A DNA stretch of 64,000 bases, from the NCBI RefSeq assembly GCF_000497575.1, contig NZ_APJI01000006.1, positions 1-64,000 on the forward strand, in the 5' to 3' direction. This document shows positions 37,833-59,541 of this stretch, piece after piece. The stretch is from Afipia sp. OHSU_II-C1. Its GTDB lineage: Bacteria > Pseudomonadota > Alphaproteobacteria > Rhizobiales > Xanthobacteraceae. The first letter of the stretch is position 1; every line of letters begins with the position of its first letter. Both the position numbers and the translations under genes were made by a program. A model generated the notes under the pieces. That model saw only the letters and a program-made list of their open reading frames with translations. It was not told the origin of the DNA and ran no database searches.

Positions 37833-37943
37833 CCTCACCTCTCCCGTGGGGAGAGGTCGACGCGCGAAGCGCGGCGGGTGAGGGCGTACGCTCTCACGAC
37901 AGATTCTACGCCCTCACCCCAACCCTCTCCCCACGGGAGAGGG
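37833..37943. repeat. Palindromic repeat (CTCTCCCC/GGGGAGAG type)
   Basis: Two hairpin units face each other: CTCTCCCGTGGGGAGAG on the left and CTCTCCCCACGGGAGAG on the right, joined by GGGTGAGGG/CCCTCACCC arms. It lies between nadQ and the DUF2339 gene. Related copies are at 45689-45800 and, more distantly, 48341-48478. Confidence 0.8.
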
Positions 37944-45688: not shown

Positions 45689-45800
45689 CACCTCTTCCCG
45701 TTGGGGAGAGGTCGGCGCGTAGCGCCGGGTGAGGGGGTTCGGTGCTCATGACTATTTATCGAGCCCCCTCACCCCAACCCTCTCCCCCAAGGGGAGAGGG
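45689..45800. repeat. Palindromic repeat between nadA and nadB
   Basis: Same family as 37833-37943: a CTCTTCCCGTTGGGGAGAGG unit and a CCCTCTCCCCCAAGGGGAGAGG unit in inverse orientation, joined by GGGTGAGGGGG/CCCCCTCACCCC. It is transcribed if nadA and nadB form one message. Confidence 0.8.
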
Positions 45801-48340: not shown

Positions 48341-48478
48341 CCCTCCCCCTTGTGGGGAGGGTGGCGCGTTGGGAGCGAAGCGAACAATGCGTCGGGTGGG
48401 GAAAGCTCCCACCGCGTGCGATGACCCCCCACCCCGGCCTCCGCTTCGCTCGGCCGACCCTCCCCGCAAGGGGGAGGG
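48341..48478. repeat. Palindromic repeat after nadC (CCCTCCCC type)
   Basis: The ends CCCTCCCCCTTGTGGGGAGGGTGG and CCCTCCCCGCAAGGGGGAGGG pair, and inner GGAGCGAAGCGAAC/CTTCGCTCGG parts are partly inverse. It lies between the convergent nadC and SleB-like genes, and shares the CCCTCCCC core with the glyS/DUF559 repeats. Confidence 0.78.
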
Positions 48479-55808: not shown

Positions 55809-58082
55809 TCAGTCCTGGATCTTCGAGAAATCCGCCACCGCGCGCGTCGCTTCGCGAATCTCGTTCAGCAGCTTCAGACGATTCTCGCGCACCTTCGCGT
55901 CGTCGTCGTTCACCTTCACCTTGTCGAAGAAGGCATCGACCGCCGGACGCAGCTTGGCCATCGCCGTCATCGCGGACGCGAAGTCTTCCTTGGCGACGGC
56001 AGCGCCTGCCTCGGTCTTCACCTGCGCGATGGCGGCGGCGAGCGCCTTCTCCTCATCGAGCTTGTAGAGCGACGCATCCGGCGCACCGTCAAACTTGCGC
56101 TTGTCCTTCTTCTCCTCGATGGCAAGGATATTGGACGCGCGCTTGGTGCCGGCGAGCAGGTTCTTGCCGTCGTCACTGTCGAGGAATTTGCCCAGCGCCT
56201 CAACACGGCGCACGACCATCAGAAGATCATCCTGACCTTCAAGCGCGAACACCGCGTCCACCAGATCATGCCGCGCGCCCTGATCGCGAAGCTGAACTTT
56301 CAGGCGGTCGGCGAAGAAGGCGAGGAGATCAGGCACCAACTTAGGCTCGATGGCCTTCGGACGAGGATTCACCAAGTCAATATTTCCGTCCGCATCCTTC
56401 ACAGAATCAAAAACAGTCGTCATTTCATAAATCTGCTCATGAATGACTTGCTGATGAGAGCTTGCAACAACGGCCAGCGGCAGCCGTATTCCATTTTCCA
56501 ATAGTAAACGGATGACGCCCAAAGCCGCACGGCGCAATGCAAACGGGTCTTTCGATCCCGTCGGCTTTTCATCGATCGACCAGAAGCCCGTCAGAATGTC
56601 GAGCTTGTCCGCCAGCGCAACGGCGATGGCGACCGGATCGGTCGGCACGCGGTCGGCAGGTCCCTGCGGCTTGTAGTGATCCTCAATTGCCGCCGCGACG
56701 GACGCATCTTCGCCCTGCGCCAGCGCGTAGTATTTGCCCATCAGGCCCTGCACTTCGGGGAATTCGCCGACGACTTCAGTCAGCAAATCCGCCTTCGCAA
56801 GCTGCGCGGCGCGCTTGGTCTTCGACACATCAGCGCCGACCAATGGCGCGATCTCGGCGGCGAGCCGCTCGATGCGCGCGATGCGCTCCGCCTGCGTGCC
56901 GAGCTTTTCATGGAACACGATCTGCGAAAACTTCGGCAGCCGGTCTTCGAGTTTGGTCTTCAGGTCCGTCTCGTAGAAGAACTTCGCGTCCGACAGGCGC
57001 GCGCGGATGACGCGCTCGTTGCCCGCGACGATGGCCTTGCCGCCGTCGGAGGCCTCGATGTTCGAGACGAGGATGAATTTCGGCGCAAGTCTGCTCCCCT
57101 CCCCCTTCCGGGGAGGGGTCAGGGGTGGGGGTCCGTCGCGCACCGGATCTTGTTGCTCACCCCCCTCCCCAACCCTCCCCCGCAGGGGGGGAGGGAGTGA
57201 GGGATCGCGAACAACGAAGCACTTCTGGTTATTGCGAATGGTGGCGCGGATCACTTCGCCGGGGATCGACAAAAATTCTTCGTCAAACGAGCCCATCAGC
57301 ACCACCGGCCATTCGACCAGACCCGCGACTTCATCGAGCAGCACCTGATCCTCGACCAGTTCAAAGCCCTGCGCGAACGCCAGTTCCTTGGCGTCCTCGA
57401 GGATGATGTTCTTGCGGCGCTCGGGATCGAGCACGACCTTCGCGGCTTCCAGCTTCGACACATAGTCGTCGAAGCGGCGCACGGTGATTTCACCGGGCGC
57501 CATGAAACGATGTCCGCGCGTGGTTTGCCCGGCCTCGATGCCGGCGACGTCGAACTTCACGACGTCCGGCTCTTCGGTTTCCGGACCGAAGGTCGCGATG
57601 ATCGAATGCAGCGGGCGCACCCAGGTCAGCGCGCCGTTTCGCGCGGAGCGTTCGCCCCAGCGCATCTGCTTGGGCCACGGGAAAGTGCGGATGATCAGCG
57701 GAATGATTTCCGCGATCACGTCGATGGCGGGACGGCCCTCTTTTTCCAGAAGCGCGATATAGAAATCGCCCTTTGGATCTCGCTGGATCTTCGCTTCATC
57801 GAGCGACTTGAGACCGGCGGCTTTCAGGAAGCCCTGCACGGCAGCGTCAGGCGCGCCAACCTTCGGGCCCTTGCGCTCCTGCTTGAGGTCCGGCTGGCGC
57901 TGCGGAATGCCGTGCACGGTGAGCGCGAGACGTCGCGGCGTCACGAATGCCTTTGCGCCTTCATAGACGAGGCCTTCGGCGACCAGCTTGTCGGTCACCA
58001 TCTTGCGCAGGTCATCCGCCGCCTTCGCCTGCATGCGCGCGGGAATTTCTTCGGAGAACAGTTCGAGGAGAAGATCGGGCAT
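55809..58082 (-). CDS. glyS: Glycine--tRNA ligase beta subunit, carrying an in-frame palindromic repeat
   Basis: A 757-residue tRNA-binding beta subunit of the heterotetrameric glycyl-tRNA synthetase. Typical parts are [87 protein letters not shown] (two motifs) and a C-terminal anticodon-binding region. Residues about 293-333 are foreign: Pro/Gly/Arg/Glu-rich and encoded by a palindromic repeat (57094-57197). The conserved text resumes at [16 protein letters not shown]. The extra segment makes the protein longer than the usual 690-720 residues. The frame is intact, so the product may well be functional. Confidence 0.93.
57094..57197. repeat. 104-bp palindromic element inserted in glyS
   Basis: Two facing units of about 40 bp (57094-57133 and 57158-57197) with a 24-bp spacer. 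The left unit matches the DUF559-flanking 40-bp repeat at 38 of 40 positions. The right unit is a diverged inverse copy. The element is read through in frame and encodes about 35-39 residues. Confidence 0.85.
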
Positions 58083-58096
58083 CGGCTTTCTGTTCT

Positions 58097-58516
58097 CTAC
58101 GCCCCTCCCCCCGCTTGCGGCGGGGAGGGCTCGGGGTTTGCCAATAACTCCCCTCCCCCTTGCGGGGAGGGGTCGGGGGTGGGGGTCAGCGCATTCTGAA
58201 TAACAGCAAGCACGCCTTCGATGTTGCTCAACACGTCATGGTTCCAGAAACGCAAGACTCGATATCCTCTCTCTTCGATCTGCCGCGTCCGGTGCATATC
58301 AGCCGCGTTCTCCGCGTGCTGACCGCCATCCAGTTCGATGACAATCTTTGCGCGCCGGCTGGCAAAATCCGCGATGAACGGACCAATCAAAGCCTGACGC
58401 CGGAAATGCGAGCCGCTCAGCGCAATGTCATGCCGAAGCCGATGCCATAGCACCCGCTCGGCTTCGGTCGGCTGTGCGCGCATGCGATGCGCGAACTGTC
58501 GCTGACGATCATCCAT
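58097..58516 (-). CDS. DUF559 domain endonuclease-like protein (VSR/PD-(D/E)XK fold) between glyQ and glyS
   Basis: A 139-residue protein. [20 protein letters not shown] leads to [19 protein letters not shown] and a PD-(D/E)XK-type core: [20 protein letters not shown], with Asp, Glu and Asp as likely metal ligands, then [14 protein letters not shown]. This is DUF559, related to very-short-patch repair nucleases. The last 30 residues ([12 protein letters not shown] and [12 protein letters not shown]) are encoded by palindromic repeat. The gene splits the glyQ-glyS pair, and perfect 40-bp inverted repeats bound it. The ATG at 58516 was chosen; the longer upstream ORF overlaps glyQ and was rejected. 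Confidence 0.82.
58148..58187 (+). repeat. 40-bp inverted repeat, left copy
   Basis: It begins CTCCCCTCCCCCTTGCGGGG and ends GTGGGGGTC. It is inside the 3' part of the DUF559 coding sequence. It is identical to the inverse of 58552-58591 and matches 57094-57133 in glyS at 38 of 40 bases. A related, shorter unit is at 58101-58136. Confidence 0.9.
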
Positions 58517-58551
58517 AGTCCGCGATTGAAGCACATAGGCCAATGCCTGTG

Positions 58552-58591
58552 GACCCCCACCCCCGACCCCTCCCCGCAAGGGGGAGGGGAG
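58552..58591 (-). repeat. 40-bp inverted repeat, right copy
   Basis: It reads GACCCCCACCCCCGACCCC and on into CTCCCCGCAAGGGGG. It lies between the glyQ stop (58609) and the DUF559 start (58516), upstream of the DUF559 ATG. Confidence 0.9.
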
Positions 58592-58608
58592 CATAGGCAT
58601 CGCGCCTC

Positions 58609-59541
58609 TCACGCCGCCCTTCCCGCTTCGGTGTGCACCCAAGCTTCGCCGCATGCCTTGGCGAGTTCGCGCACGCGCAGGATGTAGCTCTGCCGCTCGG
58701 TAACCGAGATCACGCCGCGCGCATCGAGAAGATTGAACACATGGCTGGCCTTGATGCACTGGTCGTAAGCCGGCAGCGCCATCAGATGCGCCTCGCGCTT
58801 GCCATCCTTCCATCCTGCATCGAGATATTTCCTGCAGGCGCTTTCCGCCATCTTGAACTGCTCGAACAGCATCGCAGTGTCGGAGTGCTCGAAATTGTGC
58901 CGCGAATATTCCTGCTCGGCCTGCAGGAACACATCGCCGTACGTGACCTTCTCGTCACCCTCGCGACCGTTGAAATTGAGGTCGTAAACGCGGTCGACGC
59001 CCTGCACATACATCGCAAGACGCTCAAGGCCGTAGGTGAGTTCGCCAGCGACCGGCGCGCATTCGACGCCCGCAACCTGCTGGAAGTAGGTGAACTGCGA
59101 GACTTCCATGCCGTCGCACCAGCATTCCCAGCCGAGGCCCCATGCGCCGAGTGTCGGGCTTTCCCAGTCGTCCTCAACGAAGCGCACATCGTGCAGATGC
59201 AGATCGACGCCGATGGCCTCGAGCGACTTGAGATACAGATCCTGAAGGTCCGGCGGCGACGGCTTCAGGATCACCTGAAACTGGTAGTAGTGCTGCAAGC
59301 GGTTCGGGTTCTCGCCGTAGCGGCCATCCTTCGGACGGCGCGACGGCTGCACATAGGCGGCGTTCCAGCGCTTCGGGCCGAGCGCGCGCAATGTCGTCGC
59401 CGGATGGAACGTGCCCGCGCCGACTTCCATGTCGTAGGGCTGCAGGATGACGCAGCCATGGTCGGCCCAATAGCGCTGCAATGTCAGGATCAGGCCCTGA
59501 AACGAGCGCTCGGGCCGCATGTGCGGAGGCAGGGAATCCAT
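58609..59541 (-). CDS. glyQ: Glycine--tRNA ligase alpha subunit
   Basis: A 310-residue catalytic subunit that activates glycine and loads tRNA-Gly with GlyS. It shows [73 protein letters not shown] and [20 protein letters not shown], all family motifs. The ATG at 59541 has a weak ribosome site. In most bacteria glyS follows directly; here a DUF559 element separates the two. Confidence 0.96.

Follow-up and report, generated by a model that had tools for sequence, protein, structure and literature searches.

Between glyQ and glyS of Afipia sp. OHSU_II-C1 lies a small gene of the DUF559 family enclosed by two perfect inverted repeats, and the question raised by this locus is whether gene and repeats form one mobile unit, whether the gene travels as a passenger with repeats that are spread by something else, or whether it is a host nuclease with its own control elements. 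Here, the window means the whole stretch of 64,000 nucleotides that was analysed. The original prediction, made from the window alone, regarded the locus as a minimal mobile-type unit of nuclease and repeats, and this overall reading is supported below: three tests set against it, concerning empty sites, DUF559 genes without repeats and repeats without DUF559 genes, were run and none overturned it. We think it probable that this locus represents a widespread unit of two parts, namely a DUF559 nuclease between ends of the BoxC/PIT/TM kind, in whose spreading the nuclease would play a part.

Repeats of this kind were reportedly re-described under the name PIT by Hoyne et al. in 2000. According to Holder et al. 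(2015; PMC4666352), triplex repeats were noted in E. coli since the 1990s, again in 2000 and in 2015; BoxC/PIT/TM repeats are present in E. coli and more than 260 genomes, an E. coli consensus and a rule that pairs type A with type B are given, and the repeats are described as orphans, with no mobility genes found around the triplex motif. Among fourteen open-access papers found to mention DUF559, none was on triplex repeats as far as titles and abstract openings go; subscription papers and preprints are outside this scope.

The DUF559 Locus between glyQ and glyS

The arm on the 3′ side of the gene (58148-58187, plus strand) and that on the 5′ side (58552-58591, minus strand) are 100% complementary over 40 nt and separated by a 364 nt spacer, so that the perfect inverse copies announced in the original prediction are exact. 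When the 40-mer arm was searched with at most 3 mismatches, it was found at 3 places in the window and at none in 100 dinucleotide shuffles. The flanking host genes, both called as ORFs on the minus strand, are glyQ (58609-59541) and glyS (55809-58082). The ORF of the DUF559 (YcjD-like, PD-(D/E)XK) nuclease gene is located at 58097-58516 on the minus strand, and its assignment draws on the ORF call, Pfam, an AlphaFold2 model and dN/dS; a longer reading on the same strand starts at the ATG at 58600 and gives 167 aa. The PF04480 (DUF559) match covers residues 32-138 of this longer reading with an E-value of 4.6e-34 and 117 bits against a cut-off of 20.6, which confirms the predicted identity of the enclosed protein. 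The ORF stops at 58097, and its final 29 codons are formed by the downstream repeat and the stretch past it, close to the 30 repeat-supplied codons that had been claimed. Four DUF559 matches were found in the window genome by the family search.

In addition, a hairpin is situated outside the element at 58103-58129. From a comparison by eye with the ends in related species, it is a probable scar of an earlier occupant, since it looks like the end of another DUF559 element type that those species carry at this site. This third hairpin, the mirror tails of the repeats, the four gene-less pairs elsewhere in the window and the in-frame pair within glyS (all described below) were absent from the original prediction.

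The Nuclease

The AlphaFold2 model of the DUF559 domain has a mean pLDDT of 88.9. With this model, Foldseek retrieved 3hrl (a gonococcal DUF559-like structure, E 4.9e-6), 3r3p (the homing endonuclease I-Bth0305I, E 1.1e-4) and, more weakly, the Vsr structure 1vsr (E 0.016), while the sequence profile search of the PDB gave 3hrl at 3.7e-37 and 3r3p at E 1.2e-4. Residues E16, D45, E56, D58 and H62 are invariant in 22 sequences. By its modelled fold and conserved acidic residues, the window protein is classed as a PD-(D/E)XK nuclease of the Vsr/EDxHD type with predicted activity; YcjD is likewise handled as a PD-(D/E)XK member in PMC1189080. Moreover, dN/dS ranges from 0.05 to 0.16 over nine pairs, which indicates that the nuclease is under purifying selection.

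Several other assignments were rejected. Membership of a defence system is not meaningfully indicated by PADLOC, which gave only DpdF (E 0.021) and Hhe (E 0.024). In NCBIfam, PRK09767 reached 75.7 bits against a cut-off of 218 and vsr only E 0.093, and PDB matches to enterotoxin B subunits (E 0.24 or worse) are attributed to chance. In PHROGs one family matches, to which no function is assigned there. A single query with the window's protein against 72,556 plasmid records gave matches in 38, several of them being very large replicons; DUF559 does not look like common plasmid cargo.

Association of DUF559 Genes with Inverted Repeats

The repeat score compares the 400 nt on the left of the domain with the right-hand 400 nt in reverse complement, with thresholds of ≥15 and ≥20. 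In the genus set of 29 genomes there are 49 matches above 110 bits (short DUF559), 0 to 5 per genome; the genus also holds long DUF559 genes (50-73 bits, in 27/29 genomes) and three fragments. Among the short loci, 46/48 score at least 15 and 37/48 at least 20 (L028 was left out as it lies at a contig end), against 5/188 and 0 for the shifted controls; the genes in relatives are thus mostly flanked, not mostly bare, as one of the refutation tests had asked. As for the two misses, L013 is a decayed copy in which repeats are still visible, and L060 is cut 116 bases after the domain. The long paralogs reach 15 at 1 of the 21 tested and the fragments at 0/3; the long paralog (L015, L035-L042, L073-L084) is perhaps a domesticated relative.

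Beyond the genus, 32/42 loci of the alphaproteobacterial class sample are flanked (3/45 skipped; controls 0/163), as are 13/20 of the phylum sample (controls 2/80) and 11/14 further phylum loci (2/16 skipped; controls 0/56), and only 1/7 of the weak DUF559 matches (3 skipped; controls 1/28). These class and phylum loci are the best matches together with 20 and 16 further loci taken by hand. In the named loci (the best 80 listed, of which 78 were scored), 59 reached 15 and one, L242, was dropped as a run of N, leaving 58/77 flanked with controls at 3/439; two named loci are duplicates (L249 of the training locus L120, L268 of L057). Among the labels of the flanked named loci are Planctomycetota, Chlamydiae, Chloroflexi, Spirochaetes, Nitrospirae, Deltaproteobacteria and FCPU426. 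Inverted-repeat scores of 20, 47 and 25 were obtained for two Deinococcus loci and one Azospirillum locus, hand-picked from the 38 plasmid records. Outside the genus, roughly one strong-match locus in four is without a detectable matching pair.

With 300-nt flanks and anchoring on genes, other ORFs of the same loci reach 0/5 and 0/24, and DUF559 itself 45/46 and 52/70. Scores of at least 15 are also obtained in direct orientation at 16/48 genus, 19/42 class and 14/20 phylum loci; this is expected, since the ends are palindromic hairpins, of which some loci contain multiple copies, and it means that the inverted score alone is not orientation-specific.

Two individual cases may be described. 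In two Deinococcus species (L325, L326), DUF559 is found at different points of the hpa gene cluster, with inverted repeats each time and tails apparently on the outer side. In Legionella anisa (L224), the inverted repeats are about 140 bp long, and the loop of the triplex hairpin seems to hold an insertion of a few tens of bases.

Structure of the Ends

Read from outside to inside, an end starts with a pyrimidine arm, which a small loop joins to a purine arm; a turn or second hairpin then leads to a G-rich tail. The linker before the tail is either a turn of 2-3 nt or a free-sequence hairpin, and even within a single element this hairpin can have a different sequence at each end. The tail mirrors the purine arm, A or T facing A, as in GGGGGAGGG-TCA-GGGAGGGGG for a short linker and GGGGAGAAGG-hairpin-GGATGAGGGG for a hairpin linker. 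In the window, the motif occupies 58150-58185 in the 3′-side repeat, with the hairpin outside and the mirror tail inside, and 58554-58589 in the 5′-side repeat. The original description of the repeats as hairpins is therefore right as to the hairpin, but they are not plain hairpins, each of them adding a mirror-symmetric G-rich tail.

Watson–Crick pairing of the tail with the pyrimidine arm would call for a direct match between tail and purine arm, and a third strand for a mirror match. With one matching rule for both orientations and identical ends removed beforehand, mirror exceeded direct match by 26:1 in the genus (45 ties), 64:6 in the class and phylum set (36 ties) and 49:5 in the named set (46 ties); the ties are many because the purine arm itself is nearly symmetric. 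The tail match was 7.5-8.5, against a mean of 4.5-5.0 for shuffled tails. By this sequence design, the ends are class II motifs of the BoxC/PIT/TM kind, with a putative intrastrand-triplex fold.

In L150 and L146, the purine arm is broken by a C, and a T stands at the matching place in the mirror tail. Under the third-strand pairing rule, a T opposite a C interruption may preserve a contact. A G-quadruplex from the same G runs is also possible. For the E. coli version, PMC4666352 reports the triplex fold as an in vitro structure, whereas the in vivo footprint gave a stable triplex no support.

Ten ends taken from genus and class loci served to build a covariance model, which was applied to 72 named loci; the remaining eight of the 80 were short, N-rich or edge-cut, and one of the 72 (L249) is identical to a training locus. 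Among 208 hits, 162 are full-length. The 79 kb that lie no more than 400 nt from the DUF559 domain contain 151 of these and the other 225 kb contain 11, so that the motif density near the domain is about 39-fold higher; at least one motif is near the domain in 61/72 loci. The tail of the innermost motif faces the gene on 91/107 sides, and on both sides in 38/46 loci, while several named loci have a second motif further out, facing away. Two alignments for a wide covariance model were dropped, A1 because MAFFT misaligned the pyrimidine arm and A2 because this arm was misaligned in three rows.

Empty and Occupied Sites

The glyQ-glyS interval is empty (1-6 bp) in 18/28 genomes and occupied (498-566 bp) in 10/28, G019 being left out of the count as no glyQ was found in it. 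Empty sites are thus plentiful, and the possibility that none would ever be found is refuted. Sorted by eye, the occupants are of type A in G000, G012, G022 and G023, of type A′ in G003, G018 and G025, and of type D in G002, G014 and G021. Apparent scars of other types remain in some of the flanks, 58103-58129 in the window among them. Parsimony needs eight changes on 27 tips, and empty and occupied alleles coexist at one site.

Target-site duplications at the element borders, which the original prediction had proposed to look for, did not appear in short form: over 81 loci scoring at least 20, the mean longest abutting match is 2.62 nt against 2.69 nt expected from permuted flanks. In a test for long direct duplications, 9 of 160 loci reach a score of 15, and among these only L031 (94 bp) and L049 (64 bp) give the impression of target duplication. 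These two loci represent one gene end in two genomes, and in both a type A element stands between direct duplications of the neighbouring gene's end; at the L031 site (1211-1964, in G007), the close relatives G006 and G027 are without the element.

The ycjD Locus of E. coli

In E. coli K-12, ycjD (1351407-1351760, minus strand; PRK09767) is a DUF559 gene with an E-value of 1.4e-49. The published table places TMECO no. 9 at 1351204-1351239, which is 167 bp downstream of the ycjD stop, and a decayed TM-like hairpin, CCCTCGCTCTTTCAGGGAGAGGG, overlaps the 3′ end of the gene (12.3 bits, E 0.064; region L321 6203-6761). Given 18 TM sites in the chromosome, the closeness of ycjD and a TM has a chance probability of about 0.003; ycjD is the only DUF559 gene seen beside a K-12 TM site. 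The family search's own control reported no E. coli, so this control misses ycjD; in the plasmid set, two chromosome-sized E. coli records each have one place matching the window's protein. At least 80% of the ycjD stretch is present in 3364/5426 E. coli genomes. In two strains without it, regulator and efflux genes are located beside fabI, and these are taken to be the eef operon described in PMC12817139.

Repeat Type and Repeat Number

The type of the ends follows the nuclease. In 47 genus loci, protein identity correlates with repeat similarity (Mantel rho 0.31; 0/2000 permutations reach it), and at 39/40 loci with a paralog in the same genome, the repeat is nearer to that of the closest nuclease elsewhere than to that of any paralog of its own genome. 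This match partly reflects shared descent, since some of the loci are orthologous; when only nuclease pairs with less than 55% identity are taken, a weak correlation is left (rho 0.09).

The number of repeats likewise tracks the number of nucleases, as the original prediction had proposed to examine. Model hits per genus genome, which are lower bounds with at most 150 candidates scored, correlate with the number of short DUF559 genes (Spearman 0.81, 0.79 after subtracting two per gene, and 0.77 in the 23 more complete genomes), and phylogenetic contrasts on the glyQ/glyS tree (27 tips; G019 and G021 left out) give r = 0.71 with p = 3.6e-5, 22/25 informative contrasts agreeing. Nine genus genomes without short DUF559 have 0, 0, 0, 0, 0, 3, 4, 7 and 13 repeats, against 0 to 87 after subtraction in the twenty with it; at least 80 hits were found in the window genome. 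In 120 phylum genomes, the repeat is present in 23/25 with DUF559 of at least 50 bits and in 10/95 others (Fisher p 8e-15), in a table counted by hand from two listings, assumed from their agreeing handles to cover identical sets of genomes; the repeat counts here are also lower bounds, at most 57 candidates being scored and several genomes reaching 57. In both sets, then, repeats are not equally common without DUF559. Two phylum genomes with DUF559 gave no model hit. In the ten genomes that have the repeat and no strong DUF559 match, the repeats either outlive the gene or come from another source. G070, G165 and G170 have 22-46 triplex repeats and no listed DUF559 match, and their repeats may be orphans or the work of another enzyme.

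These results bear on the alternative that survives best, according to which the repeats are an independent family, multiplied by another spreader or through replication slippage, while recombination between repeats brings in DUF559 genes as passengers. It can point to the 10/95 phylum genomes that have repeats without a strong DUF559 match, to K-12, where ycjD is the only DUF559 gene seen beside one of 18 TM sites, to the lack of short target duplications, and to the nested scars at glyQ-glyS, which fit recombination between repeats. However, both ends are mostly of related type and this type follows the nuclease clade (39/40), neither of which a passenger needs, and repeat number rises with nuclease number even in phylogenetic contrasts. 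We regard the passenger explanation as unlikely, and prefer a unit in which nuclease and ends belong together.

Pairs without a Gene

Four triplex pairs without a gene are present elsewhere in the window, some of their single arms being weak (E up to 0.044). Two inverted triplex pairs, at 45691-45800 and 37838-37943, have the same asymmetric ends, with a CGG..CCG-type hairpin linker at one end and a short linker at the other, and look like the type A/type B pairing of E. coli TM. A triplex-like inverted pair is located at 48341-48478. The fourth, at 57094-57204, is in frame within the glyS coding sequence and has two short linkers, which shows that the type A/type B rule is not general here. 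Across 28 genomes, the glyS site contains only 30 bp in 19, a gene-less pair or its visible start, in two families, in 7, and a different short insert in the two remaining ones. The glyS pair (window; L085-L112) is placed after KCFVV, and the two pair families occur at the same codons in different species.

The gene-less pairs are also relevant to an alternative that we consider even less likely than a passenger origin. Here DUF559 would be a host nuclease for Vsr-like repair or the processing of non-B DNA, the flanking repeats would be its cis-acting control, and the dispersed copies would be substrates that are tolerated or removed; a form in which the flanking repeats serve as terminators or attenuators for self-limiting expression is just as doubtful. 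Strong purifying selection (dN/dS 0.05-0.16) and the few matching plasmid records (38/72,556) agree with a host function, as does the Caulobacter DUF559 protein VsrA, which in PMC12907096 is tied to DNA damage in cells without cytosine methyltransferase and is proposed to be a mismatch endonuclease with a role in mismatch repair. Nevertheless, a host nuclease is at odds with a patchy presence in which sites can be empty and a genome can have as many as 5 short copies, gene-less pairs have the same end design as those with the gene, and copy number rises, not falls, with nuclease number.

Proposed Mechanism and Its Meaning

Returning to the two-part unit, from the association and its breadth, the mirror ends, the match between repeat type and nuclease clade, the tracking of numbers and the presence or absence at fixed sites, we infer that the nuclease itself moves the repeats. 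First of all, the nuclease would recognise the fold of its own ends in single-stranded DNA, that is, the hairpin with the third strand folded back on it. It would then cut this fold, possibly where single-stranded DNA is exposed at the replication fork, and as the break is repaired, the unit, or a gene-less pair with similar ends, could be copied to a new place or an empty allele. In this way DUF559 might play for these ends the role that TnpA-REP (RAYT) plays for REP/REPIN, the enzyme and the DNA structure both being unrelated. Such homing-like copying by break and repair seems likelier than cut-and-paste, because short target duplications are lacking and direct duplications of 64 and 94 bp are found. 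In the wider form, which we favour with some reserve, DUF559/YcjD proteins would be the dedicated enzymes of BoxC/PIT/TM, making up a multi-phylum mobility system with triplex ends and a Vsr-like PD-(D/E)XK nuclease as its sole enzyme, which would spread the unit and gene-less pairs through structure-specific cutting followed by repair, with a separate triplex variant for every nuclease clade.

DUF559 thus becomes a candidate spreader for BoxC repeats, whose origin and enzyme have lacked explanation. DUF559 itself is still named for its unknown function, and joining it with BoxC makes both questions testable. If the reading is true, a non-HUH enzyme joins those that may spread short palindromic repeats, the covarying ends give intrastrand triplexes biological weight, and there is a suggestion of why some predicted proteins have repeat-like tails, as the window DUF559 does (13 residues).

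Comparison with Known Systems

Four systems are close enough to be compared with the unit. With REP/REPIN and RAYT, REPtrons and TIRtrons (PMC3733652), it has in common a lone enzyme gene between inverted structured repeats, and, as in REP/REPIN, gene-less inverted pairs with ends of the enzyme-gene kind are found here. The difference is that RAYT is an HUH/Y1 enzyme and the window enzyme a PD-(D/E)XK DUF559 protein, and that the repeat adds a mirror tail. No Y1_Tnp (PF01797) match was found in the window genome, where RAYT is accordingly rejected as mobiliser; across the genus, 26/29 genomes are without a match and 3/29 have one. Within 8 nt outside the ends, GTAG in the REP sense was found at 0/92 genus ends, and its complement CTAC at 8/92. 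That RAYT/TnpA-REP or another transposase moves the palindromes, with DUF559 incidental, is very improbable, for although the layout is like that of REPtrons and 3/29 genus genomes have a Y1_Tnp match, the Y1_Tnp family that was searched is absent from the window genome, which contains at least 80 repeat hits, and from 25 further genomes of the genus, and the RAYT version is close to refuted. The likeness to REPIN/RAYT drawn in the original prediction, which had itself named a different enzyme, holds as an analogy. The unit is placed outside REP/RAYT and classical insertion sequences because defining features of each were looked for and not found in it, and so far nothing marks it as a homing endonuclease; by analogy, it would work most like REP/RAYT, its closest counterpart, without being a member.

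With I-Bth0305I and Vsr, the window DUF559 shares a catalytic fold according to the profile and structure searches. I-Bth0305I (PDB 3r3p) is an EDxHD-type homing endonuclease; in contrast to it, the window gene is free-standing between triplex repeats, no intron or intein host was noticed around it, and several clades occur per genome.

The YcjD locus belongs to the same DUF559 family, but in K-12 one intact TM is nearby and the element looks decayed. Finally, BoxC/PIT/TM has the same class II design (5′ pyrimidine, purine, reverse-Hoogsteen tail) and a very similar consensus, as well as inverted pairs in which an end with a CCG-type linker is joined to one with a TTA-type linker, as is also the case here. 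It differs in that most of the DUF559 genes tested here are framed by the motif, and that many of the linkers are hairpins of free sequence.
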